A stretch of 64,000 nt of DNA from Ignavibacteria bacterium (GCA_013177855.1 JABLYA010000001.1:1039231-1103230); one strand, 5' to 3'; shown: positions 22,357 through 43,392, counted from the first letter of the stretch. Notes: generated by a model from the sequence alone, not told the origin. A program made the numbers and translations.

Positions 22357-24795
22357 TTATTCTTCATCTTCATCCTCAGGGACTACTCTTGCGATTGCAG
22401 AGATCCTATCATTAGGACCTAGTTTGATCAATTTAACTCCCTGAGTATTCCTTCCCATTACTCTTAAATCTTTTGCATGTTGACGAATTATCATTCCTTT
22501 TTCAGTGATAATTACAATATCATCGTTATCATCGATTTCTTTTATATCAACCATCTTGCCATTCTTATCACTAGTTTTAAGTGTTCTTACACCTTTACCA
22601 CCACGACGAGTAATTCTATATTCATCAATTTCAGTTCGTTTGCCATATCCATTTTCAGTGACGACAAGAATTGTTGATTTTCGTTTTGAAACGACCATAC
22701 CGACAACTTTATCATTTTTATCGAGATTAATGGCTTTAACACCAGCGGCATTTCTACCCATATCACGCACTTCCTGTTCGTTAAATCGAATTGCCATTCC
22801 CTCGCGTGTTCCAATAATTATATCATCTGCGCCGTCGCTGATTTTTGCATCAATCAAGCGATCATTTTCATTCAAATTGATTGCAATAATTCCGGTTTTT
22901 CTTGGATTGCTAAAAGCATCCAATCGTGTTTTCTTAATCAAACCTTTTTCAGTCACCATTACAACAAATCGATTTGGATCGAATTCCCTGACAGAAACAT
23001 AAGCACGAATATTATCACCCTTATCAAGTTGGACAAGATTCAGAATTGATCTTCCTCGTGAAGCTCTTCCACCTTCAGGAATTTCGTAAACTTTCAACCA
23101 GTGACATTTACCCTGATCTGTAAAGAGCAAGATATAATTATGAGTTGATGCAATAAACATATGCTCAATAAAATCGTCTTCACGAGTTGTTGCCGCTGTT
23201 ACTCCTTTACCACCGCGAGACTGTCTACGATATCCACTAACTGGGAATCTCTTTATATAACCATTGTGGGAAATGGTAATTACAACATCTTCCTCAGCAA
23301 TAATATCTTCGATGCTGAATTCAGAATAATCCTTGATCACTAAAGTTCTTCGTTCATCGCCATATTTCTCTTTGAGTTCAAGCAACTCATCACTGATAAT
23401 TTGCATTCGTTTTGCTTTGTTAGCAAGAATGAATTTTAATTTTTCAATTAATTTAATTGTCTCACGATATTCATCTTCGATTTTCTTTCTTTCAAGTCCT
23501 GTCAATCTTTGCAATCTCATATCAAGAATAGCTTTCGCTTGAATTTCTGAAAGCTTGAATCTCCGCATCAAACCATTTTTAGCAGTCTCAACATCTTTTG
23601 ATTTTTTAATTAACTGAACAATTTCATCTATATTGTCAAGAGCAATTTTGTAACCTTCAAGGATATGAGCTCTTCGTTCTGCAGCATCCAGATCAAACTT
23701 TGTTCTTCTTACTAATACTTCGTGACGGTGATCAATAAAATGCTGCATCATTTGTTTGAGAGTAAGAACAGTCGGAACACCATTCACCAGTGCAAGCATT
23801 ATTACACCGAAAGTCACCTGCATATTTGTATGCTTGTAGAGTTGATTCAAGACAACCTCGGGCTGAGCATCTCTCTTTAACTCAATTACAACTCTTAACC
23901 CGTCACGATCTGATTCATCTCTTATATCTGATATGTCATCGATTTTACCTTCTTTGACCAGTTCGGCAATCTTCTCGATTAAATTTGCTTTATTAACCTG
24001 ATAAGGTAACTCAGTTATGACGATGTTTTCTTTTCCAGATTTAAGAGTTTCAATGTTAGCTTTAGCTCTTATGATAATTTTGCCGCGGCCTGTTTTGTAA
24101 GCTTCTTTAACTCCTTCATAACCGTAAATAATTCCACCTGTTGGAAAATCTGGTGCCGTTACATATTTCATTAATTTCTCATCGGAGATTTCAGGATCTT
24201 TAATCAAAGCAACTAATCCATCGACAATCTCATTCAAATTGTGAGGTGGAATATTCGTAGCCATTCCTACAGCAATTCCACTTGCACCGTTGATTAAAAG
24301 ATTTGGAATGTAAGAAGGTAAAACAACAGGTTCCTGCAAACTATCATCAAAGTTTGGGACAAAATCGACTGTGTTTTTATCGAGATCACGCAGCATTTCT
24401 TCAGCAATGCGTGAAAGTCGGGCTTCTGTATATCGCATTGCTGCAGGTGAGTCACCATCGATTGAACCAAAGTTACCCTGACCATCAACAAGTGGATAGC
24501 GCAAAGAAAAATCCTGAACCATCCTCACCATTGTATCATAAACTGCTGCATCACCGTGCGGATGGTATTTACCTAAAACTTCTCCAACTATTCTTGCCGA
24601 TTTCTTAAATGGTTTATTGTGAAAAAGTCCCAGTTCATACATTCCATAAAGAACTCTGCGATGAACTGGTTTTAAGCCATCTCTTACATCGGGCAATGCA
24701 CGGGCTACTATAACCGACATTGCATAATCGATGTAAGAGCCTTTCATTTCATCTTCTATCGTAACAGGTACAATCTTTTCAAATAATGTAGACAT
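22357..24795 (-). CDS. gyrA: DNA gyrase subunit A
   Basis: This 812-residue subunit breaks and rejoins DNA. The catalytic tyrosine is Tyr 122 in [11 protein letters not shown]. The region that sets quinolone sensitivity reads [12 protein letters not shown] at residues 79-90. It matches E. coli numbering but has Ala at position 83 in place of Ser and keeps Asp 87. The C-terminal pinwheel has repeated blades ([21 protein letters not shown]). Length is typical. It follows gyrB after a 283-bp gap that contains no gene. Confidence 0.97.
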
Positions 24796-25078
24796 AAATT
24801 ATTTACTTCCTCAATTTTATTTTACTCAAAATTTGATTCAACCTTTGCCAAACCTGGGTTGATAATGTTTTTCTCTGTAAAATTCATTTTATCGAAAAAT
24901 TGCAGTGATCATTTTTTCAAGATTAAATTTCAGGTTGAACTTTTTGAAAGCTGAGTGACAAACATTTTTTGATAACGAATATCACTCATTATCAGGCTCA
25001 ATCTGAAAATTATTTAACTAAATCCGTCATCATACTAAGTTTATCAAAGTACGATAACAATTGAGATTAAATTTCAAA

Positions 25079-27130
<2,052 letters not shown>

Positions 27131-27135
27131 TTAAA

Positions 27136-27423
27136 TCAAAGAATGTTTATTTGTTTAACTAAATCTTTTCCAAATGATTTGTTAATTTTCTCAATAATTT
27201 GTTCACGTAATAAGAACAACTCATTCTTCCATGATGAGCTTTCAACTTTAATTTTCAATATTCCACGCTCAAAACTTAAAAACTCGACTTGCTTTGCAAT
27301 TTGCTCACCTACAATCTCATTGAACTTTTCAATCAATAAGTTTTTCTGTATGATTTCATTGAGCTCGTATTTTTTTACGATTTCATTTAAAAGCTGTGAA
27401 AGACTTTTGATATCAGTTGACAT
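27136..27423 (-). CDS. DUF721/DciA-family protein (candidate helicase loader)
   Basis: This 95-residue protein belongs to DUF721: SLSQLLNEIVKKYELNEII, then WxN-like EIVGEQIAKQVEF and the C-terminal strand GILKIKVESSSWKNELFLLR. In several phyla DciA loads or recruits the replicative helicase DnaB. Its place between recF and gyrB is the common context. It overlaps the recF end by 11 bp. Confidence 0.85.
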   Translation of the reverse strand: MSTDIKSLSQLLNEIVKKYELNEIIQKNLLIEKFNEIVGEQIAKQVEFLSFERGILKIKVESSSWKNELFLLREQIIEKINKSFGKDLVKQINIL

Positions 27424-28528
27424 TTACTACACTTCCATTTTGAATTTGAATTACACAATCCATATCTGTCTTTTGTAAATTCTTCATATCATTTAAATCT
27501 GTTAAAGTAATAAATGCCTGTCCAAGCTCACTGAGATGCTCACTGATTTTTTGACTTCTTTCTCTATCAAGATGACCAAAAACATCATCAAGCAAGAAAA
27601 ATGGTGACTTCCCAAGTTTATTTTTTAAGTAAAAATATTCTGCAAACCTTAAAGCAACCTGAAAGGTTTTATGTTGACCCAGTGAACCAAAATCTCTCAA
27701 ACTAATTCCATTAATAGAGAACTTAAAATCATCTTTATGAGGTCCAACCAGATTAGCAGCTCTCCTCAATTCATTTTCTCTCTGTCGCTCAAGCTCCGAA
27801 TACAAAACACTTTGAATTTCATCATCTGAGTTGTGATTTATTGTCTGGTACTCAATAGAAGGTTCTTCGTTTCCATTTAGTATTTTTGCATAAATGTCTT
27901 TCACATAATCATTAAATTCAAATACAAATTTCTTTCTTGCGACTATCAGTTTTGAACCAACTTCAATCAATCTTGCATTCCACACATTAAGTTCATTAAA
28001 AAGCTCAGTGGAAAAGCTTTCTCTTATTTTAAGCAGAAGCGAACTTCTTTGCTTGAGAATTTTTTTATACTCAAGAAGATTTTCAAAGTAAGTTTTACTT
28101 AATTGTGAGATTACTGAATCAACAAACTTTCTTCGCTCCTGTGGAGCTTCTTCAGTAATTTTTGAATCAGATGGAGAAAGAAAAACCACGGGGAATCTTC
28201 CAACAATCTCCTTTGGCGAAGAAATCAACTTACCATTCAAAGAATAAAATTTTCGATTTTCAGATTTACTATACCTTACAATCATTGTATTCTGCGTCAG
28301 ATCAAAAATATTTCCATAAATTTCAAAGTAATCTTCATTGAAATTAACAACCTCTGCATCAGAGTTTGAAGTAAAACTCTTTGTCGTTGATATGTAATAA
28401 ATGGCTTCTAAGATTGTTGTTTTCCCCTGACCATTACCACCGATTATATAATTCAGCCCATTGCTGAACTGAATAGATGTATTTTTGTGAAGCCTGAAGT
28501 TAGTCAATTTTAAAGAACTTAAATACAT
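27413..28528 (-). CDS. recF: DNA replication and repair protein RecF
   Basis: This 371-residue SMC-like ATPase helps load RecA at gaps in single-stranded DNA. Walker A is GGNGQGKTTILEAIYY near residue 32. The RecF signature LVGPHKDDFKF and the Walker B region FFLLDDVFGHLD are present, and the first strand carries LTNFRLHKN. It sits between dnaN (57 bp upstream) and the DUF721 gene in the classical order. Confidence 0.96.
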   Translation of the reverse strand: MYLSSLKLTNFRLHKNTSIQFSNGLNYIIGGNGQGKTTILEAIYYISTTKSFTSNSDAEVVNFNEDYFEIYGNIFDLTQNTMIVRYSKSENRKFYSLNGKLISSPKEIVGRFPVVFLSPSDSKITEEAPQERRKFVDSVISQLSKTYFENLLEYKKILKQRSSLLLKIRESFSTELFNELNVWNARLIEVGSKLIVARKKFVFEFNDYVKDIYAKILNGNEEPSIEYQTINHNSDDEIQSVLYSELERQRENELRRAANLVGPHKDDFKFSINGISLRDFGSLGQHKTFQVALRFAEYFYLKNKLGKSPFFLLDDVFGHLDRERSQKISEHLSELGQAFITLTDLNDMKNLQKTDMDCVIQIQNGSVVNVN

Positions 28529-28584
28529 TAATTTTTGAATTCCTGTCCAAAACTCCGTTCAAATCAATTCTCAACTTCAACGGG

Positions 28585-29697
28585 TTAAATGTTTACTCGC
28601 ATTGGCATAACCAGGATCAACAAATTCTCATTTGCTTTTTGCTCTGAAGGTTCAATAATGCAAGGTTTTATTGGCGAATTGAATTTGAAAACTACTTCAT
28701 CTGAATAAATATGTTCCATTGCATCAGCAATAAAATCATGCTTGAATGAGATCTGCATTTTTTCACCTTTGTATTCACACAAAATCTTTTCATTCATCTG
28801 AGTTCCGAGTTCGGGATTTTCTGCAGTCAAAGAAAGCATATCGTTAGAAATTTCGAGATCAATTCTTCTAATTTTACTGTGAATATAGTAGCTTGCTCTT
28901 CGAAGTGTCTTTAATAACTCGGTACGATTGACTTTCATCACATTATCGTTATCAAGCGGAATTACAGTTTCATAATTTGGATAAGTATCATCAATCAATC
29001 TTGTAAAATATAATCCACCATCGAACTCAAATTTTACAACTCTATCTCCAATGGTAACCAGTACTTCCTTCTCATCCAGAATTTTTGTCAATTGTTCAGC
29101 AGATTTTGCTGGAATAATCAACTGAGCTTCAAATTCCGGTTGATAATCTTCATAAGTCAACTTAACTAATCTATGCCCGTCAGTAGAGACAAAAACTAAT
29201 TTATCTTTTTTCAAATCCATCAAAATTCCGCGCATTGCAGCTCGCTGCTCATCCTTACCGCACGCAAATTCTGTAAGATTGAATGCCTCTTTTAATCTCT
29301 CACCGCTGATTTTAAAGGTCAGCTTTCCCTCAAATTGTGGAAATTTGGGGAAATCCATCGGGTCAACATAACTGATGATGTACTTACCCGTATCTGTATG
29401 GATTACACATTTTTTCTCATCTTGATTAAAGGTAACCTTCAAGTCTGTATCAGGAAGGTTGCTAACTGTATCATTAAATATTTTCCCCGGAACCGCAACC
29501 TGTATTTCACCATCTGAAAAAACAGGCAATGTTTTCTGATAAGCAACATTAAAGTCTGTCGCAAAAATCGTTAGATGGTTATCCTTTAATGTTAAGAGGA
29601 AATGGTTCGTTATTTCAACTGTTGTTTTCGAGGGTAATACCAACGAAAGTTGAGATAAAATCTTGTCTAAATCTTTTGTGTTTATTTTGAATTCCAT
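28585..29697 (-). CDS. dnaN: DNA polymerase III beta sliding clamp
   Basis: This 370-residue protein forms the ring that tethers the polymerase to DNA. Three repeated clamp domains are visible (starts near residues 1, 128 and 246), with the conserved RGILMDL, STDGHRLVKLTY, IPAKSAEQL and DDTYPNYETVIP. The terminal MPMRV is the usual C-terminal end. The listed frame begins with TTG 29703; ATG 29697 is chosen as the usual start, with AAAGGA upstream. The gene heads the dnaN-gyrA block. No dnaA is adjacent, and no DnaA box cluster is seen in 29704-29897. Confidence 0.96.
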   Translation of the reverse strand: MEFKINTKDLDKILSQLSLVLPSKTTVEITNHFLLTLKDNHLTIFATDFNVAYQKTLPVFSDGEIQVAVPGKIFNDTVSNLPDTDLKVTFNQDEKKCVIHTDTGKYIISYVDPMDFPKFPQFEGKLTFKISGERLKEAFNLTEFACGKDEQRAAMRGILMDLKKDKLVFVSTDGHRLVKLTYEDYQPEFEAQLIIPAKSAEQLTKILDEKEVLVTIGDRVVKFEFDGGLYFTRLIDDTYPNYETVIPLDNDNVMKVNRTELLKTLRRASYYIHSKIRRIDLEISNDMLSLTAENPELGTQMNEKILCEYKGEKMQISFKHDFIADAMEHIYSDEVVFKFNSPIKPCIIEPSEQKANENLLILVMPMRVNI

Positions 29698-29897
29698 TCT
29701 CAAAATCCTTTATTATTCTTTGAAAATTACGAAAAAATATAGACCTTCTCAATTTAAAATTTGCCTGATTTTGATTGAAAAGCTTTAATTTTTTAAAAAT
29801 TTTTGAGGTTTCTGATGAGATTTGGTGTAAATCAGATTATAAGCTAAAAATTTATGTTAATTTCTTATTCAACCGTAAAAATTTCTAAAAAGCAGTG

Positions 29898-32800
29898 TTA
29901 AGTTTTATGTATTGGTAAAATTACCTCGAATTCAGTGCCTTCTCCCTTTTTGCTCCAAACTTTGATTTCACCTCCCATTAATTCTACAAATGTTTTGGTT
30001 AATGCTAATCCGAGACCGGTTCCTTCATAAGGTCTTGCATAACCAACTTCTTCCTGACTGAAAGGCTGGAACAAGTGTTTCTGATACTCCTCACTCATAC
30101 CAATACCATAGTCTCTAATTCTTAACGAAACCTTATCACCCAATTTTTTACTGGAAATTTCAATCTTTAAACCCGGAGAACTAAATTTTATAGCGTTATT
30201 AATCAAATTAAACAAAATTCCATCTATACAATATTCGTCTAATTTTAATTGAGGGATTGAGTTGTCGAGAGAAATTTCAAATTTTATTTCTCTGTTTTTA
30301 GCCAGAACATCAAGCTGGTTTATGATTTCTCTAATTTTTTGATTTATATCAATATCTTTTAATTTAAGATCAAACTCTCCAGCTTCAATTCGAGAAATAT
30401 CAAGTATCTGATTAATTGTATTGAGCAGCCTTTTGCCGGCTTTCTCAACTGCCTCGAAATATTTAGAAATCTCTTCATCTTTTCCTGTATCGAATAATTC
30501 TCTAATTACATTATTAAAGCCGAGAATAACATTCAAAGGAGTTCTAATCTCGTGAGACATCATAGAAATGAATCCGCTCTTAAGTCGGTTCGCTTCTTCA
30601 GCTTCTTCTTTTGCACGAATGAGATCATCAATCAACTTCTTGCGCTCAGTAATGTCCCTGATTATTGCAAAATAAAGATTACCCTGATCTGTTTTTAAGA
30701 CTGAAAATTTTGCATCTATCCAAATTTTTTTCCCATTGTGTAAGACAGCTTCACCTTCAAATTTCAGTCCAATATCACCACTTAAGAATTTCTTGAGATG
30801 AATTTGAAAAAATTGTTCTCGTATCTGTGGATGAAAAACTTTGCTGAGGGACGAGCCAATTAAATCATTTTCTGGTAAATCTACTAATTTGCAAAGAGCT
30901 TCATTTACCATTTTAATATTGCCGAACTGGTCTGTGATGATCATTGCATCTTTACTATTTTCCCAGACATTTCTAAAGAGTTTTTCAGACTTTGCGAGTT
31001 CTTCCGAAAGTCTTTTCCTTTCCGTTACATCCCTGAAGATTGCAAGGAGTAATTTTTTCCCACCGATATTGACAAAAGAGTTGGAGACTTCAAACCAAAC
31101 TTTTCTGCCATTAAACAAAGTGACTAAAGTTTCTGTATGTGCTTTAACTTTTCCAGTCCTAAATCTTTCTTTATGTTTTCTTAAGATTTCATCTTTTCGT
31201 TCAGGAGAATAAATTTCAGATAACAATTTGCCTTCAATTTTTTCACTGGTTAACCCAACCATTTTACAGAAAGCAGAATTAACTAAAATAACTTTACCAT
31301 CCTCGTCAGTAAGTCGCATTCCATCCTGACTGTTTTCCCAGATTAGTCTGAATTGCTCTTCGGATTTTTTAAGTTCTTCCTGAAGCTTTTTTTCTTCTGT
31401 TATATCTGAAAAGAAAGCAAATGACCCGATATATTTTCCATTATCATCATATATACCTGTAGCAGAAACTCGCGTCCAGATTACTGAACCATCTTTCTTC
31501 TTTAGTTTTATTTCATAAAGTCCAGCTATTCCCTGTTCTCTTTCTTTCTCTCTAAGTTTTTGTTTTTCTTTATCTTTCTCAAAAAGGAAAAATTCACTAA
31601 AATTTTTACCAATTATTTCGTCTTTATCATAGCCAGTCATTTCACAGAATTTTTTATTTACTTCTGTAAAGTTCGCATTAAAGTCAGCAATACAAATTCC
31701 TTCATTCGCTGTTTCAAAAATTGTTCTCCATTTTTTTTCACTTTCGATCAATTGTTTTTCAAGAAGTATTTTTTCTGTTATATCTTCGCAAATAGATAAA
31801 ATTCCCGTTGAACCATCGGGAAGAATAAATTTTGTCTCTATCAGATGAAAAAACTTCCTAGAACCATCTTTCACTATTGATTCAACTGTATGATCAAGTA
31901 TCTCACCACTTAAAATTCTCTGAATATGAGTACTTACTTTATCTCTGTTTTCAGGAGCAACAAACAAATAGACTGAATTTCCAATCAGTTCATCCCTTGT
32001 GTATCCAACAATTTCCTCATACTTCTTATTTGCATCAATTATAGTTCCTTTAGAATCTTCAATTAAAATTCCAACAGGTGCATTATTTACAATTGCTTTA
32101 AATCTCTCATTAGCTTTTTCAATATTTTCAATTGCTTTTTTTAGCGGAGTAATATCATAAGCTGTTCCGAGACCTGCCGGTTTTCCAAACCATTTAATTA
32201 AGCTTCCTGTAAAATCAACCCATTTTTCTTCGCCATATTTTGTAATTATTTTGAATTCGTAATTTATAGGAACAGGCTCGCCCCTCTGCCTTTTCAAACC
32301 TCTTTCTTTTACAAGTTCTCGAAAATCAGGATGTACTAAATCATAAAATTTTTTATTCTTTATTTCTTCAATGGTATAACCAGTTAAATTCACACCTGCC
32401 CTGTTCATATAAACAAAATATTCACCCTGATAAACAAAAATTGCAGTGGTAGTAGAATCTGCTAACTTCTCAAAATGTTCTTTTCTCTGTTTTAGCTCCT
32501 CTTGAAGTTTTCGGCTTTCAGTAATATCCTGAGAGGCACCATATATTTTAATTACTTTACCCTTATCATCAAAGATTGGAACAGCATAATCAATAACCCA
32601 GCGCATTTCATTAGATTTAGTAATCATTCTCCCTTCCATTCGATCTGGCACACCACTCAAAACTTTCTTTGCATGTTCGATCCAGTTTGGTAAATCCTCT
32701 TTGTACATTGCATTTTGCCAGCCGCCGAGCGCATCCAATTCTGTAATTGTCCATCCAAATGTTTGAATAAATGATTCAGATACCCATTCACCTTTCATAT

Positions 32801-33671
32801 TGCCATTTTCGTCAACAATGAAAGAATAAGTGTAATCAGTAACAAGATTGGTAATGGTTCTAAATTTTAATTCGCTTTCTTTTAATTCCTCTTCTAATTT
32901 TTTTCTTTCCGTTATGTCTCGAGCAATACCTTCAATGGCAATCAAATTACCTTTATCGTCATAAATCGGTACGTTTTTTTGTTCAGTCCAGATTATACTT
33001 CCATCTTTTTTGATCCATCTAAAAGTTACAGGTTTATCAATGCTGATTTCTCCTTTAGCAATCTTTTCTAAGATATACCGATCATCTGGATGAACTATTT
33101 TAAATACTAAATCTGGATCTGCATAATGTTCTTCGGGTGTGTATCCTGTTATTGTAGTTGCCGATGGGCTGACAAAAGTAAATCCTCTTTTAGGGACAAA
33201 TTCATATCTGTAAATTAAATCCTGAGCATTTTCTGCAAGTAAACGAAACCTTCTTTCGCTTTCCCTTAATTCTTCATAAACTTTTTTGTTTTCTTTTATA
33301 AGCTTATATCTAACAAGAGCCTCTTCAATTGCAATGGGGACTTTTTGCAAATGTTGTTTTAAGATATAGTCATAGGCTCCACGCTTCATACATAAAATAC
33401 CAAATTCTTCATTGGCTGAGCCAGTTACAATTATGAAAGGAAGATCGGGATACATTTCATGAGTAATATGCAAGGCGGTTAAACCATCAAAACCCGGAAT
33501 ATTATAATCTGAAATGACGACTTCAGGTTTAAATTTCGAAAGTTTAATTATGAAATCTTTTCGGTTAGAGGCTGTTTCTATTAAAACTTCACTGAAATAG
33601 TTCTCTATCTCTCTTTTAATTAATTTAATATCCGACTGGGAATCATCTAAAATCAAAATTCGGAGTTCCAT
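29898..33671 (-). CDS. Giant receiver-multi-PAS histidine kinase
   Basis: This protein of about 1257 residues has no membrane segment. It begins with a response-regulator receiver (ILILDDSQSD, acceptor Asp in VVISDYNIPGFDG). Then come seven PAS units, read from seven repeated starts between about residues 144 and 1020, most with PAC tails ending in IxRDITERK or DITEEK. HisKA follows (phospho-acceptor His in ISMMSHEIRTPLN), then HATPase (IRDYGIGMSEE, GTGLGLALTK). An N-terminal receiver upstream of a kinase suggests that it takes phosphoryl input or that the receiver tunes the kinase. Several PAS units likely arose by internal duplication (ENSQDGMRLTDED and ENSKDAMIITDQF). No cognate output regulator is adjacent. 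Start at ATG 33671; neither it nor TTG 33680 has a ribosome site. Confidence 0.9.
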   Translation of the reverse strand: MELRILILDDSQSDIKLIKREIENYFSEVLIETASNRKDFIIKLSKFKPEVVISDYNIPGFDGLTALHITHEMYPDLPFIIVTGSANEEFGILCMKRGAYDYILKQHLQKVPIAIEEALVRYKLIKENKKVYEELRESERRFRLLAENAQDLIYRYEFVPKRGFTFVSPSATTITGYTPEEHYADPDLVFKIVHPDDRYILEKIAKGEISIDKPVTFRWIKKDGSIIWTEQKNVPIYDDKGNLIAIEGIARDITERKKLEEELKESELKFRTITNLVTDYTYSFIVDENGNMKGEWVSESFIQTFGWTITELDALGGWQNAMYKEDLPNWIEHAKKVLSGVPDRMEGRMITKSNEMRWVIDYAVPIFDDKGKVIKIYGASQDITESRKLQEELKQRKEHFEKLADSTTTAIFVYQGEYFVYMNRAGVNLTGYTIEEIKNKKFYDLVHPDFRELVKERGLKRQRGEPVPINYEFKIITKYGEEKWVDFTGSLIKWFGKPAGLGTAYDITPLKKAIENIEKANERFKAIVNNAPVGILIEDSKGTIIDANKKYEEIVGYTRDELIGNSVYLFVAPENRDKVSTHIQRILSGEILDHTVESIVKDGSRKFFHLIETKFILPDGSTGILSICEDITEKILLEKQLIESEKKWRTIFETANEGICIADFNANFTEVNKKFCEMTGYDKDEIIGKNFSEFFLFEKDKEKQKLREKEREQGIAGLYEIKLKKKDGSVIWTRVSATGIYDDNGKYIGSFAFFSDITEEKKLQEELKKSEEQFRLIWENSQDGMRLTDEDGKVILVNSAFCKMVGLTSEKIEGKLLSEIYSPERKDEILRKHKERFRTGKVKAHTETLVTLFNGRKVWFEVSNSFVNIGGKKLLLAIFRDVTERKRLSEELAKSEKLFRNVWENSKDAMIITDQFGNIKMVNEALCKLVDLPENDLIGSSLSKVFHPQIREQFFQIHLKKFLSGDIGLKFEGEAVLHNGKKIWIDAKFSVLKTDQGNLYFAIIRDITERKKLIDDLIRAKEEAEEANRLKSGFISMMSHEIRTPLNVILGFNNVIRELFDTGKDEEISKYFEAVEKAGKRLLNTINQILDISRIEAGEFDLKLKDIDINQKIREIINQLDVLAKNREIKFEISLDNSIPQLKLDEYCIDGILFNLINNAIKFSSPGLKIEISSKKLGDKVSLRIRDYGIGMSEEYQKHLFQPFSQEEVGYARPYEGTGLGLALTKTFVELMGGEIKVWSKKGEGTEFEVILPIHKT

Positions 33672-33814
33672 AAGTATCAAATCATTTTGTTGGGATATTT
33701 ACATTAATTCTACTAAACAATTTAATTTTAATTATTTGAATTAAAAAATTCGCCTTCAGAAACTTTTCAAAAAAATTTTCATCAAATCTTGATGATAAAA
33801 AATGAGAAGGAGAT

Positions 33815-35455: not shown

Positions 35456-36400
35456 TCAATTAACACCAAAAATCTCCGCAACTTTCTCTTGAACATCGGA
35501 TTTGAATTCACTTTCAAACTTTGCATCAAAGACATAGGCTCTTACTTGAAATTCAAGGTTACCTTTATCATTCCTGCCTTTATAAATTACCTCAACTGGT
35601 TTATTGATTGAATTAAAAATTGAAAGCGATACAATTTCATTTAATGCAGTTTTGATTTTTGATATTTCAGCCCTGGGCGGTATCTCAATAATAAATGTCA
35701 CCTGTTTATTCTTAGAAATAACATTTAAATTTTCAAAAGCCGATGAAATAAAAAGTTGATTTGGAATCTTTATCAACGAATCATCTTCAGTTATTATATC
35801 AGTCGTTCGTAAATTTTTTGAATGTACTTTACCTGAATAATTGCTGATCTTTATCCAATCACCGTACTCAAATGGTTTATCAATCAAAATCATAATTCCA
35901 CCAACAACATTTTTCGCAAGCTCACCGATTGATATAATCAAAACAATGAAAACAAAAATCAAAAAGAGTAAAACTAAAATTCCCGATGTTTTCAAAATCA
36001 CAAACAAAATAAAGACAACAGTAAAAGTCCATATTAAAATGTGCGAGATTACCTTTATTAAATCCGCATTCTTGAATTTTGAGGAGAGATTATATTTATT
36101 GTAGAAGTGATTCAATCGGTAGTTTAAAAATCCCATCAAAAAAACAACTAGTAAAATTAATAATATCTTCCAGCCAACAGGAATTATTTGTGAGATTAAA
36201 TCATCTATAAATTTTTCTGACTTATTCTGTTCATTTATAAGAGGAGTATATTCTTTCTCCTTTATTACAATTTTTACTGTTTCTACTTTGGCTGGAGTAA
36301 CGATTGTTGTGCTCGTATCGATTGGGAAGTCTCGATATGTTGTGTCCATCTGGACAACTTGAAAAACAAAATTAAGCAATAAAAACACAATCACTTTCAT
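35456..36400 (-). CDS. MscS-family mechanosensitive ion channel
   Basis: This 314-residue protein has an N-terminal signal-like or membrane helix, a short periplasmic loop, then about four helices ending in the pore helix (ISIGELAKNVVGGIMILIDK). The MscS beta domain starts at PFEYGDWIKI and includes GKVHSKNLRTTDIITEDDSL and IPNQLFIS, followed by a C-terminal alpha/beta domain. Such channels open under membrane tension to release ions. It is the last gene of the antiporter operon: ATG 36400 lies 1 bp past the preceding TGA. An alternative TTG at 36409 would overlap it. Confidence 0.88.
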   Translation of the reverse strand: MKVIVFLLLNFVFQVVQMDTTYRDFPIDTSTTIVTPAKVETVKIVIKEKEYTPLINEQNKSEKFIDDLISQIIPVGWKILLILLVVFLMGFLNYRLNHFYNKYNLSSKFKNADLIKVISHILIWTFTVVFILFVILKTSGILVLLFLIFVFIVLIISIGELAKNVVGGIMILIDKPFEYGDWIKISNYSGKVHSKNLRTTDIITEDDSLIKIPNQLFISSAFENLNVISKNKQVTFIIEIPPRAEISKIKTALNEIVSLSIFNSINKPVEVIYKGRNDKGNLEFQVRAYVFDAKFESEFKSDVQEKVAEIFGVN

Positions 36401-36401
36401 A

Positions 36402-39400
36402 TCATTCAAAGATGTGTAATTTTCTTAATTCTATTTCAATTGGTTTATAGAGAGCTGGATTGATATAAAATACTTTTTCGCCTAACTCATTCAATTCAAA
36501 ATGGACAAGATTTGCAGCGTTCAAGAAATTTAAGATCGTTTTCGATTTCTCTAAATCACAACTGAAAATTTCTTGATGTTCGGCAATAGTTAGACTACCA
36601 TGCTGAATTAAATTTGAAAGCGTAAGCAATTTTTCAATTTCAAAGGTTTGAAGGAAACGAAAATCAAGTTTCTTAAACGGAGCGATGTAAATTTTATTAT
36701 TCTTGAATTCCTTAATTGATTTCATCCAATAGAACATTGCCGAAGTAATATTGCCTTCACAGGCATCATATAAACGATCAAAGTATTCTTCTTCAAGATT
36801 TGATTGCCTGTCTTTATTAGAAAGACTTAATTTCAAATACTTATAAGATTTCAAATGTTCATCGGCTAAAAATTCAAGATCATATCCAGAGGTTCGATGT
36901 CGTTTTAGAATTGCTTCTTTGATTTGATCTTTTGTCAGTACTTCTGTTTTAATCTGAAATGGGAAGAAGTTACTGATATTTAAAATTCGATTTAACAATT
37001 CCCATGCATGATATGAAATTGAGACAACCCAGAAAATTTTATGATTAGTTTCAGAAATAATTAAAAGTAATTTCTTCATTGCTTCTAAATAACCATACTT
37101 ACGGAGGAAGATCTTATGAATGTCTTCAAGAATTATCACTTTGTATTTTGGATTGATGTTCAGCTCACTTATCAATTCTTCGTAAGTTGCGATATAATCG
37201 AGCCCAAGCATTTTGGATAAAATATTTAATAACTCTTTTTCCGATTTAATTGTCTTTTCAAAAGTGTAACGATGTATTTGCGTATCTATTTGAGTTTTCA
37301 TTAAAAATGAACTAATCAAGCTACTTTTACCAGTTCCACTTTCACCAATGATGGCAGTTGAACCAGGCAAGCCATTTAAAGTTCTTTCATAAGCTTTATG
37401 AAGAATTGATTTCTCTTTTTCTCTTCCAACGAGTATCTCAACTATTTCTGAAGAAGTGTAATCGAAGAGTTTTTTGTAAACGAAAGGAAGGGAATTATAA
37501 ACATTCTTGTCGTAGATTGTTTGCTCATAAGAGTAAATTATAACGCTTTTACCTTCAAGATCAATTTCTAAAATATCCTTGACTTCTCTCAGGAGCGGTT
37601 TTAAAATTTGATTATATCTTCTTTTAAGAATTACCCATTGCTTTCTGAGTTTCTTTAGATTTTCTTTAAAAGAGACAACGACAGTGTCCAGTAATTCTTC
37701 GTATTTACTTTTCTTAATCCTCTTCTCAAGTTCAATTGTTAATTCTTTTGTAAATGCTTCTTTTATTGCAGTAATTTGTTTGTAGATTTTTTCTGTTAGA
37801 GCAAGTTCAATTTCTCTCTCGAATTTTTCAATTTGACGTTCCCAGACTTTAATTTTCTCTCGAACCAGTTTAGTAGTTGTCTTTAAAGTATCATCAAATA
37901 CTTTCTGGAAGCTTTCACCAATTTGGTCTCGATCAATTTCTTTTTCTAATGTATTTATCTCTTCAATTGCGATGTTGAAATGATAATAAATCACATTTTC
38001 AATATTTTTTAATTCTAAGATTGAACTACTCAAATGGTCATTGACGATCTCATTGAGTTTGATAATCTCTTGGAGAATTTCATTTTCAAAATAACTTTTA
38101 ATTACATCTGTAAAATGAAGAGTTTTAAGTTCAATGTATCTGGTTCTGGTTTCTTTAATCTCAAAATCTCGATCATCAAGAACTTTAATTTCGGTTTCAT
38201 ACTCTTTTATGAGCGAATTGAATCTTTCTTTAAGAGAATTTATTGTATTAATCAGGCTGTAAGTTTTTTTCAAATAGTTTAATCGGGCAATGCCTTTCTC
38301 ATTTAAAGTTAAAATCACCTCATCACGATACTTTGAGATCAAATTTTTGATAATTGAAATCTTTTCAAAACTCAATAAACTTTTATTCTCAAGCTCCTTT
38401 TCGAATGATTTGAGAATTGTATTAATTTCATTAATTAATTCTTTTAGCACTTTATTGATCGTATCAGAATGATGAACCATCGTATCGTTTACAATAGAAT
38501 TGATCCTTCCCGTAATCTCGAAAATTCGTGCATCCCGCTCACAAACTCCAAGAAAACCTAAGAAATAGTTGACCCAGAATCTAATCGTTTCAAGAGTTGT
38601 CTCTTTTGCTTTAAGCGATTCAGAATAAATTTTTGAGAAATGAAACTTTCGAATATTTAGTTCAATTGTTCCAGCTTTGAGAATCGCTTTCAGGAATTGA
38701 TTGAAAGGATTGGCAAATGCATAATTTAATCTTGTACTGATATTTTGATTTGAGCTTTCGATTTCCTCACCAATTGAGGAGATTTCCTGTTTAAGCCTAT
38801 CGTGAATTTCGTTCAATTTATCGATAGCAAGTAGCGAAACAGCATCTATATCTTTGTATTCAGTAATAAGATTGAGTAGCTCTTCGAGATTGTTAGTTAC
38901 ATCGTCGTAAATTCTTTTAACTTTTCTCAGTATGTTCAATCTTTCCATTCCCATTAAAAATGCAGCTTTTTCCATTTCAAGTGCAATCTGATACTCAAAG
39001 AAATACTTTACCAGAATTACATATGGTATCTTTCGTTTTAATACAAACTTTAAGCCTAAGAATTTTTTAATCTTTCTTAATAACCTTTTGTAAGATTTTA
39101 CAAATTTGATTAAGTAGCTGTCATCTGATTCTGTTTCATACTTATCAAGCTCCTGTTCAACTACAATAAATTCAGGCACTGTTTCGGAGTATTCTTTCAG
39201 ATCATCAAATAATTTTTGAAGCAGATATTCAGCATTTAGTATTTGTTGCTCAACAGATTTACGCTTGACGCTGAGCTCGGCAAACCAGGAAGAAATCTCC
39301 TGCTGAATATTTAAAACTTCTTCTTTTATTTCTTTCCCTGTAATCTTCCCTTTCGTGAATAAATTTTTAAGTTTTTGATATTCTTCGATGTATTTCTCAA

Positions 39401-40928
39401 CAACCTGATAATAAAATTCAAGAGCATCTTCGCTTCGTTTGTTGATAAGATTATTTTCAAATTCCTTCAAATAATTAATTAATTTTTCTCTTAGAGAAAT
39501 TATCAGATTGTTTAATTCAGGATCTTCGAATTGTGGGACATCAAATTTCTTTTGCGGGACAATATCTTTTCGAATTTTTTCTATTATCTTCTTTTCTTCC
39601 TTCTTCTCCGCAGTTTTAGAAACTCGATTAAAACGCTTTATAGCAATCTTAAATAACGCTGGACCAATCAATAGATTTAATCCAACTATTGAAACAATTA
39701 TCGGTGTAATTAATTCTTGCACCTGATTGATATTTGATGTGAAGTAAATCATAAAACCCAGAGCCATTGCAGACTGAGAAACAAATCCGAGCCATAAATT
39801 ATTCTGTAAAAGAGGTACTTCACTTGCAAGTTTTGCTGCGATTTTAGTGGAAGAATAGAGAAGAATTAATCTTACAACAAAGATTAAAATGGTAAGTTGA
39901 AAAGTTAAAACAAGAGCATTCAAATTTAAACCAGCACCGGCAATCGTAAAGAAGATTACATAAACAGGCAGAGAAAGTTTTTTTATTGGCTCTATTAAAT
40001 CATCAGAATATTTCGAAAAATTTTTTACAACAATACCAATGGTGATGAATACAAGCAGAACATCGAGATGTAAAAGTTTACTTACTTCAGAAATGATTAA
40101 AATAGATGCGAGAATAAAAATTAGCAATTCTTCTTTGATATATTTTAAGTACAGAATTATCAAATAAGCAGCAGTTGAACCTGCAACAATGGATAAAACT
40201 ATTTCCTTTAATCCATCTAAAAGCACACTTGAATTAAATCCTGCACCACCTAAAATACTTTTAGAAAAGGCTATTAGTAAGCTAATCAGAATAACCAGAA
40301 TAATATCCTTAACAACTGCGATGCTTAAAACAAGTTGAGATAATTTACTTCTATCACCTGTTTCGTTCATCACAGCGATAGTTGCAGCTGGAGAAGTTGC
40401 AAGCATCAAAACACCAGTAAAAAGAGCGGTGATCAATATCACATTATAAGGTACATTATTAAAAATAGGAATATAAGGAGCGGTAAATAAAATTATACCT
40501 GTTAAAACTGCTGGTAATAAAATCAGTTTGAACAAAACTATTAGAGAAATAATTTTCTTTTCAGCCAGAAATTCTTTTAATACAATTTCACCGCCGGCAG
40601 AAATAGCAATTAATCCTACTGCTAAACCATTTAATAATCTTAAATCATTTACTGATGTATCAGTAAAAATACTTAATAGATCAGTTCCAAATATTACAGA
40701 TGAATAAGGTCCGAAAATAATTCCAGCGATTAAATAACCACTGATTCTTGGAAGTCCAAGATAATAAGTTAATTCACCAAACGAATAAGCAGCGATCAGG
40801 ATAAATCCTAGCGAAATTAAAGTATCGGCATGAAATATCTGGCCAGTGTCAACTTGAAGGACTTCGAAAATGTTTACTAAAAATATTAGGCTTATAATAA
40901 TTCCAAGTTTTCGGATAAATGAAATCAT
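36402..40928 (-). CDS. Fusion of CPA2-type antiporter, long helical/coiled-coil region and C-terminal P-loop ATPase
   Basis: This 1508-residue protein has three parts. Residues about 1-430 form a 10-13-helix cation/proton antiporter-like domain of the CPA2 type (ATSPAATIAVMNETG near 177, then VVKDIILVI, where Asp matches the conserved ion-site acidic residue). Residues about 430-1120 are mostly charged helix and coiled coil. Residues about 1160-1508 form an AAA+/STAND-like ATPase with Walker A GESGTGKSS at 1195-1203, Walker B VIILEDIHKI ending near 1273, and a C-terminal region that could be a winged helix (GSLTIAEHQEIFSCDLEKSK). A REKE motif lies before Walker A. I know of no described protein with this whole plan. 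Transport may be gated by ATP binding or by a signal to the ATPase. Its start overlaps the upstream antiporter by 4 bp. Confidence 0.82.
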   Translation of the reverse strand: MISFIRKLGIIISLIFLVNIFEVLQVDTGQIFHADTLISLGFILIAAYSFGELTYYLGLPRISGYLIAGIIFGPYSSVIFGTDLLSIFTDTSVNDLRLLNGLAVGLIAISAGGEIVLKEFLAEKKIISLIVLFKLILLPAVLTGIILFTAPYIPIFNNVPYNVILITALFTGVLMLATSPAATIAVMNETGDRSKLSQLVLSIAVVKDIILVILISLLIAFSKSILGGAGFNSSVLLDGLKEIVLSIVAGSTAAYLIILYLKYIKEELLIFILASILIISEVSKLLHLDVLLVFITIGIVVKNFSKYSDDLIEPIKKLSLPVYVIFFTIAGAGLNLNALVLTFQLTILIFVVRLILLYSSTKIAAKLASEVPLLQNNLWLGFVSQSAMALGFMIYFTSNINQVQELITPIIVSIVGLNLLIGPALFKIAIKRFNRVSKTAEKKEEKKIIEKIRKDIVPQKKFDVPQFEDPELNNLIISLREKLINYLKEFENNLINKRSEDALEFYYQVVEKYIEEYQKLKNLFTKGKITGKEIKEEVLNIQQEISSWFAELSVKRKSVEQQILNAEYLLQKLFDDLKEYSETVPEFIVVEQELDKYETESDDSYLIKFVKSYKRLLRKIKKFLGLKFVLKRKIPYVILVKYFFEYQIALEMEKAAFLMGMERLNILRKVKRIYDDVTNNLEELLNLITEYKDIDAVSLLAIDKLNEIHDRLKQEISSIGEEIESSNQNISTRLNYAFANPFNQFLKAILKAGTIELNIRKFHFSKIYSESLKAKETTLETIRFWVNYFLGFLGVCERDARIFEITGRINSIVNDTMVHHSDTINKVLKELINEINTILKSFEKELENKSLLSFEKISIIKNLISKYRDEVILTLNEKGIARLNYLKKTYSLINTINSLKERFNSLIKEYETEIKVLDDRDFEIKETRTRYIELKTLHFTDVIKSYFENEILQEIIKLNEIVNDHLSSSILELKNIENVIYYHFNIAIEEINTLEKEIDRDQIGESFQKVFDDTLKTTTKLVREKIKVWERQIEKFEREIELALTEKIYKQITAIKEAFTKELTIELEKRIKKSKYEELLDTVVVSFKENLKKLRKQWVILKRRYNQILKPLLREVKDILEIDLEGKSVIIYSYEQTIYDKNVYNSLPFVYKKLFDYTSSEIVEILVGREKEKSILHKAYERTLNGLPGSTAIIGESGTGKSSLISSFLMKTQIDTQIHRYTFEKTIKSEKELLNILSKMLGLDYIATYEELISELNINPKYKVIILEDIHKIFLRKYGYLEAMKKLLLIISETNHKIFWVVSISYHAWELLNRILNISNFFPFQIKTEVLTKDQIKEAILKRHRTSGYDLEFLADEHLKSYKYLKLSLSNKDRQSNLEEEYFDRLYDACEGNITSAMFYWMKSIKEFKNNKIYIAPFKKLDFRFLQTFEIEKLLTLSNLIQHGSLTIAEHQEIFSCDLEKSKTILNFLNAANLVHFELNELGEKVFYINPALYKPIEIELRKLHIFE

Positions 40929-42157
40929 TTTATTTCACTTAAATCTATCAATAAATCTTTTGTCAGTTTTGTTGAGAGTATTTCGTTAATTAGGACAGCA
41001 GTTATTATTACAGCAAATAAAGTATTTGTCAATGGATTATCATAAACCTGCTGGAAATTAACCATCATTGTAATTGCAATAATTCCCTGAGTGTTTAAAC
41101 CCAAACCAATTCTTGGACTAAATTTATTTTTATCGAAACAAGAATGATAACTAAGCCACCCATTAAAGTATTTAATTACTACTCTGATTAATATATATAA
41201 GAACAAACCCGCGAAGAAAATCCAGAAATTATCAATACGAATAATTGCGCCAGCGTAAATTAAAATAATCACATAGAAAGGATGTTCTAACTTTTTAAAG
41301 ACTGACACAAGTATATCTTTTGATTTAATAACATTCCCTATTACAAATCCTGCAAGCAAGTTCAAAAATAATGGTGAGAAATTCATATAATAGGCAGTCC
41401 CTGAAGAAAAGATTATAATTCCAAGCAAAGCCACTAGGAGTTTATTTTCATTTTCTTCTCTTTCAAGAAAAACGAAAAATAAAAATCCAATAATCAATCC
41501 AAGAACGATGTTCAATACAAACCATTCAACCGGAGTAATGTGAATTCCGCTTGTTTGTCCTTTGTGAAAAATTGTAAACATCAAACCAAGAAATGTAATT
41601 GCAAGAAAATTATTAATCTTTGAAATTCTTTGAAGTGTATTAAAATTAGTTCCTGAGACCTCAAACTTACTCTGAATTGATTCAAGAACTCCATTCGAAA
41701 AAGTCGAAGCAGAGATTCCAATGATCAATGAATTAGTAATTATGTTTTCAATTGATAAAATATTTTGAAACAGATAATACATCAAAAAGAAGCTAAGCCC
41801 GCTCATCGAAATTGTGGTGAGTATAATGTCATTAACAGCAAGTTTGAAATGCTCAATTGAATAGTTGAAAAGTTCTTTAATTCTAAATTGAAGTCCTACA
41901 GAAAAACCTACAGCACCTAAGATTGTTGCAATTATTGGTTTTAACTGAAGCAAACCTTCACTATCAAGTAAAATTGGAAGTTTGATATTAAATATTCCAT
42001 TCAAAAAATTTATAAAAGGCTCACCAATAAAAATACCAATAAACAAGAATTCGAGTCCTGTAAGATAAAGTAATCGCTTTTGCAGTTTTTGATTTATAAA
42101 GTGAAAAGAAAGAAAGCCAAAAATGACAATTAAGATAAGAAGTAAAAATGTATTCAT
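40925..42157 (-). CDS. CPA2-type antiporter-like membrane protein
   Basis: This 410-residue protein has about 12 predicted membrane helices in the Na+/H+ (K+/H+) antiporter-like fold (VGFSVGLQFRIKELF in the first half; GLNTQGIIAITMMVNF in the last). Charged ion-site residues are not clearly kept, so it may be a structural partner of the fused antiporter and not a second transporter. It ends in TGA overlapping the ATG of the 1508-residue gene. ATG 42157 is chosen over TTG 42163; no good ribosome site is visible for either. Confidence 0.75.
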   Translation of the reverse strand: MNTFLLLILIVIFGFLSFHFINQKLQKRLLYLTGLEFLFIGIFIGEPFINFLNGIFNIKLPILLDSEGLLQLKPIIATILGAVGFSVGLQFRIKELFNYSIEHFKLAVNDIILTTISMSGLSFFLMYYLFQNILSIENIITNSLIIGISASTFSNGVLESIQSKFEVSGTNFNTLQRISKINNFLAITFLGLMFTIFHKGQTSGIHITPVEWFVLNIVLGLIIGFLFFVFLEREENENKLLVALLGIIIFSSGTAYYMNFSPLFLNLLAGFVIGNVIKSKDILVSVFKKLEHPFYVIILIYAGAIIRIDNFWIFFAGLFLYILIRVVIKYFNGWLSYHSCFDKNKFSPRIGLGLNTQGIIAITMMVNFQQVYDNPLTNTLFAVIITAVLINEILSTKLTKDLLIDLSEIK

Positions 42158-42213
42158 TGGCAAATATGTGTTTGTATCTGAATCATCACTTCACAAATAT
42201 GCAAATGAATTAA

Positions 42214-43392
42214 TTAATTTCCATAAGGAGTTTGAAGATATCTTTTAGCGGATGAGTGAGCGTCACTCCAATTCTTTATGGAAAGAACATAATTATAGGC
42301 TTCGATTGCTTCATCTCGTCTGCCCATTAAATCATAGACTATTCCTAAATTCAAAGCAGCGTAAGATTGAAAACCAGACTCATCCCCCTTTTTATCAATT
42401 TCCTTGCTGATATCTACGCATTTTTTAAAGAAATATGCAGAGGAATCGAATTTGCCCTCAAATCTATAATTCATTCCAATGTAATAAGCTGCTTCGCGCA
42501 TCGCATTTTTGTTATAACCAGGGAGACCCGCTTCAGCTCTTGAATAAATTTCTGTAAAAACCTCTGAAGCTGTTTTGTAATCTCCAGCTCTGATATAAGT
42601 CCTTCCCAGATAACGATGAAAAATTGGATTCAACGGATATTTTTCATGAAGGATTGATGCGTAACGCCTCGCCTCGAAAATATCATCCTCATAATGATAA
42701 TTAATGTAAAGTAAGAAATACATTGATTCAGTTGAGGCAAATTTTGCCTTTTCAGCTGCAGTTTTAAGCTGTTGAATTCCCAGTTTCTTATTCCCTTTTG
42801 GGAAAAAAATCATAAGAGGTTTGACATATGGAAATTCATCGGGGATTACTTCAGCAAAATAATTGTAAATGCCCATTCCAAAGAGTAAGTCATAATTAGT
42901 TGAATCAATTGACCAGGCAATTTGAAGAAGTGGTAAAGCTTCTCTTCCATCATCTGCAGCTTTGATCCAGCTGTCTCGCAATCCTCTTAATCGTCCACGA
43001 AAACCAATTGCACCTCCTTTAAAGAATATTGCGTCAAGATTTTTTTCATCGTTTTTTAAAATTTGATCACAATGGTAAATCACATCCTCAAGTTTTTCAA
43101 AAAATAAATTATCTAAGGATTCATTTTCAGGTTCAATCGCAATTCTCCACCAATCAATCATCGCAAGGAAAAATCTGCCTGCAGGACTATCCGGATATTC
43201 TAACATCAATTTTTTGAAAACTACCTCTGCCGAATCAAATTGAATATTATAAATGTAGTCAATTCCTTTTTTAACTCTTAACTCAAAATCTATGGTGTGA
43301 GCAAAGCGAGCAGAGTCTTTAATTATTTCATTAGAAAATGCAAATGTCAAGAAAATATGAACAAATAAAATTGAAAGGATTGCCCTTTTCAT
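42214..43392 (-). CDS. Exported TPR protein
   Basis: This 392-residue protein has a signal peptide (MKRAILSILFVHIFLTFAFS) and a series of TPR-like helical repeats, for example the final YAALNLGIVYDLMGRRDEAI and FHRYLGRTYIRAGDYKTASE. TPR proteins act as scaffolds. It precedes the antiporter genes by 57 bp on the same strand and is likely cotranscribed with them, so it may be the periplasmic partner of the transport complex. That is inferred from context. Alternatively it is an unrelated leader gene. Confidence 0.78.
   Translation of the reverse strand: MKRAILSILFVHIFLTFAFSNEIIKDSARFAHTIDFELRVKKGIDYIYNIQFDSAEVVFKKLMLEYPDSPAGRFFLAMIDWWRIAIEPENESLDNLFFEKLEDVIYHCDQILKNDEKNLDAIFFKGGAIGFRGRLRGLRDSWIKAADDGREALPLLQIAWSIDSTNYDLLFGMGIYNYFAEVIPDEFPYVKPLMIFFPKGNKKLGIQQLKTAAEKAKFASTESMYFLLYINYHYEDDIFEARRYASILHEKYPLNPIFHRYLGRTYIRAGDYKTASEVFTEIYSRAEAGLPGYNKNAMREAAYYIGMNYRFEGKFDSSAYFFKKCVDISKEIDKKGDESGFQSYAALNLGIVYDLMGRRDEAIEAYNYVLSIKNWSDAHSSAKRYLQTPYGN

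Follow-up and report, generated by a model that had tools for sequence, protein, structure and literature searches.

A four-gene locus in an Ignavibacteria genome

The window analyzed here is a 64,000-nucleotide stretch from an Ignavibacteria bacterium (GCA_013177855.1 JABLYA010000001.1:1039231-1103230), and our subject is a run of four genes between 35456 and 43392, one of which joins an antiporter domain, a long helical arm, and an ATPase in a single 1508-residue chain. A first-pass annotation had called this run from the sequence, and all four open reading frames (ORFs) were confirmed as tightly packed genes on the minus strand (Table 1). They are transcribed in the order TPR protein, 412-residue antiporter-like protein, fusion, and MscS-type protein. 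A gap of 50 bp separates the first two genes, the antiporter-like gene overlaps the fusion by the 4 bp first reported (40925 versus 40928), and the MscS-type ORF begins either at an ATG at 36400, 1 bp past the fusion stop as originally described, or at a TTG at 36409, with an 8-bp overlap. No Rfam family or tRNA was detected in the window. The TPR gene adjoins the locus only in the window's own family and lies outside the conserved core.

Table 1. Genes of the locus and domains of the fusion, in window coordinates
Feature	Position	Strand	Evidence
TPR-repeat protein, signal-peptide-like N-terminus	42214-43392	-	ORF, Pfam TPR repeats
Second antiporter-like protein, 412 aa, without ion-binding Asp	40925-42163	-	ORF, profile comparison
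Antiporter-arm-ATPase fusion, 1508 aa	36402-40928	-	ORF, Pfam, structure models
CPA-type antiporter domain of fusion, residues ~36-440	39609-40823	-	
Duplicated helical arm of fusion, residues ~460-1130	37539-39551	-	
ORC/Cdc6-like AAA+ ATPase of fusion, winged-helix-type C-terminus, residues ~1136-1508	36405-37523	-	
MscS-type protein, 317 aa, beta-domain present, pore-helix motif lost	35456-36409	-	

The fusion is not an artifact, since intact frames of ~1500 residues recur in four related genomes (G001-G004), each with the same TPR, antiporter-like, and MscS neighbors, and a dozen further antiporter-fused loci occur in other genomes beyond the window's family. A frameshift or assembly join of two genes was thereby ruled out. 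In a fifth relative (G005), the fusion is a single open frame ended by the contig edge. The four-gene order is repeated across the window's family, where a glycyl-tRNA synthetase-type gene (glyS), MEMO, and AMMECR1 form syntenic flanks, and where the arm and ATPase are more conserved than the antiporter.

Pfam placed Na_H_Exchanger at residues 54-420 of the fusion (3e-17; 63 bits versus a cut-off of 26.2) and AAA_16/AAA_22 from residue 1166, in agreement with the N-terminal antiporter and C-terminal P-loop ATPase first described. The ATPase carries a Walker A motif, GESGTGKSS (Lys 1201), and a Walker B motif, VIILED. Its structural model (predicted local distance difference test score [pLDDT], 89) shows an AAA+ fold followed by a winged-helix-type domain. 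The top matches were to ORC1/Cdc6 (Foldseek, 1e-9; VIA, Z 16.4 over 246 residues at 3.1 Å), with TnsC, NSF, Apaf-1, NLRC4, and plant NLR proteins ranked lower, and there was also a weak MarR-type winged-helix match. The Walker B pattern, hhhhED in the window and hhhhEN in many relatives, suggests a slow switch more than a motor. The model thus describes an ORC1/Cdc6-type AAA+ protein with a STAND-like Walker B motif, which may bind and hydrolyze ATP. Weak ATPase matches (23% identity) were also seen on two Novosphingobium plasmids (NZ_CP009292.1 and NC_015583.1).

Between these domains, the ~700 residues first described as helix or coiled coil are indeed present, but the model shows them as an ordered helical module with an internal duplication (pLDDT mostly 80-90). 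Its two halves are related (92%; reversed control, 0.4%), and each includes a small beta-hairpin. In the Foldseek and VIA lists, no PDB match was to the arm itself; ATPase matches took up these lists, and the arm may yet have a known fold.

The coil-ATPase and its MscS-type partner

Relatives were found by an ATPase profile search across the phylum and in named genomes, and pairing was counted over 100 distinct matched frames or loci. Members of this family of ~1000-residue coil-ATPases have a same-strand MscS gene directly adjoining in 94 of the 100 loci, downstream in 82 and upstream in 12. Five of the six unpaired loci are ended by a contig edge, and the last (L025) is one piece of a disrupted gene, the other piece of which lies directly beside MscS. 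With just two MscS genes in the whole of the window genome, chance adjacency is negligible. Carriers include Ignavibacteria, Melioribacter, Balneolaceae (Gracilimonas, Balneola, and Fodinibius), Thermonema, Splendidivirga, and one Acidobacteriota metagenome-assembled genome. Judged by gene order, the ATPase and MscS genes are inseparable across the Bacteroidota, Ignavibacteriota, and Balneolota genomes examined. The core is the coil-ATPase with its MscS-type protein, and fusion with an antiporter is not part of it. The unit first proposed, of antiporter, ATPase, and MscS channel, is revised to this pair, with transporters added more than once; the analogy first drawn with STAND/AAA ATPases was upheld, the protein being ORC/STAND-like. 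In four loci (L116, L118, L122, and L123), a second MscS gene, divergently oriented and with an ordinary pore motif, flanks the pair, and in L066 (2782-6998) the ATPase is followed downstream by four consecutive genes, three of MscS type and one of CorA type.

The pair occurs in several layouts. Type A, antiporter-arm-ATPase, is represented by the window and 17 other distinct loci; type B, in which an SLC12/KCC-like cotransporter is joined to the arm and ATPase, comprises 5 loci; and types C and D consist of the arm-ATPase alone, ~1000 residues without membrane helices, with MscS downstream or upstream. The arm is homologous across layouts (hhalign, 94-99.8% versus <3% for a reversed control), and sequence comparison shows arm and ATPase to constitute one family throughout. 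The N-terminal half of type B contains AA_permease and SLC12 domains, and its best PDB match, over the membrane and C-terminal domains, was KCC4 (3e-81). Two unrelated transporter folds, a CPA antiporter and an SLC12 cotransporter, are thus seen in the domain assignments to be fused to the N-terminus of the arm-ATPase. In a quick tree of the ATPase, a single branch separates type A from all other sequences and another does so for type B (support, 94 and 84); each therefore needs one change, and fusion probably occurred once for each transporter. In the MscS tree, no single branch divided partner from non-partner MscS proteins.

Departures from these layouts were also recorded. Two genomes from the window's family carry a disrupted SLC12-type fusion (L024:5088-10014, split over two frames, and L025:7177-9920, over several), through either decay or assembly error. 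A Balneolaceae-type clade (L067, L087, L094, L096-L099, and L111) has the ATPase, in frames of 440-466 residues, beside MscS without the helical arm. In the weaker, more distant loci L129-L132, a separate Na_H_Exchanger gene of another motif type (SSA/SD) adjoins the ATPase, the short membrane protein is doubtfully MscS-like, and two of the ATPase relatives have no P-loop match.

Every component family is common by itself, and the locus could in principle be an ordinary conserved operon of unlinked transport genes with no functional coupling. We consider this very improbable, given the ATPase/MscS adjacency in all testable distinct loci from many families, the fusion of the arm-ATPase to two unrelated transporters, and the correlated loss of the MscS pore motif set out below.

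Pore and ion sites of the membrane proteins

The MscS-type protein of the window has a clear Pfam MscS beta-domain (8e-21; 74 bits versus a cut-off of 20.2), and its best PDB matches were YnaI and MscS. The Gly/Ala pore-helix motif of this family (GIAVGFA/GIAxGFA type) is kept in 68 of 70 unfused (C/D) loci and is replaced by bulky aliphatics in all 23 fused (A/B) loci; since the fused loci fall in only two clades, 0/23 represents about two events rather than 23, both in the same direction. The corresponding segment in the window is LFLIFVFIVLIISIGE. Thus, of the MscS channel first annotated here, the beta-domain stands and the usual pore-helix motif is lost.

In the fused antiporter, Asp 208 aligns with the ion-binding Asp of CPA transporters (the "ND" of NHE6) and is preceded by Lys ("KD"). 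The Kef subgroup is marked by QD and SST motifs (PMC10224563); the fusion carries KD and TSP motifs and has no TrkA_N domain, which places it outside this K+ efflux subgroup. The 412-residue protein had no Pfam match, and a PDB sequence search with it gave none, yet by profile comparison it shares a fold family with the fused antiporter (hhalign, 99.6%, E 2e-24). It has Asn at the position aligned with the ion-binding Asp, and its counterparts in type A have no conserved acid there. The 412-residue protein is probably an inactive partner of the fused antiporter. The earlier description of two CPA2-like antiporters therefore holds for fold only, the second lacking the ion-binding Asp and not being clearly a working transporter. 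With the pore-helix motif lost from one and the ion-binding Asp from the other, neither the MscS-type protein nor the second antiporter of the window appears clearly functional as a channel or transporter.

A comparison of Walker and antiporter-site residues across homologues, as the first-pass annotation had proposed, showed that the Walker A Lys is kept in 23 of 23 fused-type loci and in most unfused ones and that the ion-binding Asp is present in most fused relatives. These patterns bear on an alternative in which mechanosensitive channel activity of the MscS protein persists in every branch, the ATPase does no more than anchor or assemble that channel, and the fusions co-localize K+ export with it under no nucleotide control. 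The invariable ATPase/MscS pairing would suit such an anchor, as would the loss of Walker A in a whole clade and the weak retention of catalytic-type residues. However, loss of the pore-helix motif in every fused locus and retention of the Walker A Lys in all fused types speak against it, and we regard this alternative as unlikely.

A candidate nucleotide switch for osmolyte and potassium release

We see an even chance that the locus is one branch of a system in which a nucleotide switch controls osmolyte and K+ release and in which the effector has been swapped. At its core, a cytosolic ORC1/Cdc6-like (STAND-like) switch bearing a long duplicated arm would be partnered by a membrane protein of the MscS family, and nucleotide state together with arm position would set the state of the membrane effector. 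In unfused systems, the MscS channel itself would be the effector and would release solutes. In fused systems, this role would fall to the K+-linked transporter joined to the arm, in the window a CPA antiporter probably pairing with its inactive 412-residue paralogue; the MscS-type ring would become a scaffold or membrane tension sensor, and the 412-residue protein a structural or sensory partner. The likely purpose would be to adjust the release of K+ and osmolytes to the volume and energy state of the cell. We infer the physical complex, its gating, K+ as the substrate, and the osmotic purpose from this comparative evidence. The original suggestion of ATP-gated ion flux in osmotic or ionic stress fits the KCC-type and antiporter fusions, the TrkH/TrkA neighbors, and the invariable MscS gene, and is retained as the putative function.

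TrkH and TrkA genes lie in the same cluster in all 12 type A loci outside the window's family (hidden Markov model searches, with Pfam on examples). The MscS, Trk, and KCC-type families serve volume and K+ handling, and the KCC-like cotransporters are of the human volume-regulating type. Among carriers, the Balneolaceae are known from hypersaline soils, and the description of Fodinibius salsisoli, which carries locus L162, mentions Ktr and Msc genes (PMC9909488).

Several observations weigh against a nucleotide switch for K+ release. The entire MscS-upstream clade, like some other relatives, has lost the Walker A Lys, and hydrolysis is therefore not essential family-wide. The ion-binding Asp is altered in a few fused copies (KS in L022, KE in L069 and L091, and no counterpart in L071), and the fused antiporter has KD instead of the QD of KefC and is without the KefC SST motif; K+ specificity is thus putative. 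The window's family has no adjacent K+ genes, and the sole TrkH of the window genome lies far off. In addition, the pore-motif loss comes down to about two evolutionary events, and the correlation between MscS and ATPase distances (r 0.95 within type A), which favors a linked pair, is also expected from shared ancestry.

Alternatively, the system may act at the envelope or chromosome rather than in osmosis, with a winged-helix, ORC-like ATPase that binds DNA or a division component and is tethered to the membrane by the MscS or transporter domains. The closest ATPase folds are those of DNA-binding initiators, the MarR-type match points the same way, and the window copy lies near dnaN and recF. 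Winged helices are also found in STAND switches, however, the locus lies elsewhere in other families, and it would not explain why ion transporters and K+ uptake genes were recruited repeatedly; we judge this reading improbable.

The first-pass annotation had also raised a role in phage defense, in which a STAND-like ATPase would sense infection and trigger ion leakage through the MscS protein or the transporter. Coupling of an ORC/STAND/NLR-like ATPase, with its Apaf-1, NLRC4, and plant NLR matches, to membrane effectors is consistent with such a role, and effector swapping is typical of defense systems. Nonetheless, PADLOC 2.0.0 assigned no defense family to any of the four proteins at E values up to 0.1, and searches of viral contigs and phages gave no matches and those of plasmids only the two weak ones mentioned above. 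Furthermore, the locus lies beside gyrA-gyrB-recF-dnaN and glyS with the same neighbors across the window's family, occupies another fixed housekeeping neighborhood in several Balneolaceae, and showed no patchy, island-like occurrence. Given this housekeeping location, the vertical inheritance within the family, and the lack of PADLOC, phage, and viral-contig matches, we hold a defense role to be quite improbable. In the window, the gyrA-, gyrB-, recF-, and dnaN-like genes form one run (22357-29703) that suggests a replication-origin-type neighborhood. Beside dnaN (29898-33680) lies a gene for a 1260-residue sensor kinase with a response-regulator domain and ~6 PAS domains.

The proposed switch for osmolyte and K+ release has partial counterparts among known systems. 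Like KefC/KefF and KefB/KefG, it would control K+ efflux through a CPA2 antiporter that has a large nucleotide-binding domain for regulation in the cytosol and is accompanied by an ancillary protein (PMC10224563), but the Kef regulator is a short KTN/RCK domain with an oxidoreductase, whereas here an ORC-like ATPase with a ~700-residue arm is found, along with an MscS-type partner and a KD rather than QD motif at the ion site. The partner shares the MscS beta-domain with MscS, MscK, and YnaI but differs in always standing beside the ATPase gene and in losing the pore-helix motif in the transporter-fused branches. Type B matches the membrane and C-terminal domains of KCC4 in its N-terminal half and adds to SLC12/KCC proteins a C-terminal arm, an ORC-like ATPase, and a downstream MscS-type gene. 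The AAA+ core, modeled fold, and STAND-like Walker B motif recall ORC1/Cdc6 and STAND proteins (Apaf-1 and NLR), from which the long arm, the transporter fusion, and the fixed MscS partner set it apart. KtrAB/TrkAH-type uptake genes cluster with 12 antiporter-fused loci but are separate genes and are not in the window's cluster.

The component families are known, and the system itself, for which we found no known counterpart, is apparently undescribed. No description of the MscS-ATPase pair or of the fusions was found in the literature searched, as the first-pass annotation had anticipated; coverage of subscription papers was poor, so an earlier mention is possible. More tentatively, these loci may represent a widespread class of nucleotide-switched valves. 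An ATPase ring or arm seated on an MscS-type heptamer would open it, and the effector role would have passed repeatedly from the MscS pore to fused K+ transporters, after which the MscS fold would persist without a pore, as sensor or scaffold.

Membrane tension is regarded as the main stimulus for MscS channels. If our interpretation is correct, a nucleotide switch beside MscS in nearly 100 distinct loci would add control by energy state or signal to these osmotic safety valves. The joining of a KCC-like cotransporter to a bacterial ATPase, together with the other layouts, would offer natural "effector swap" comparisons, and the existence of culturable carriers, halophiles and others (Gracilimonas, Fodinibius, and Thermonema), makes the system testable.

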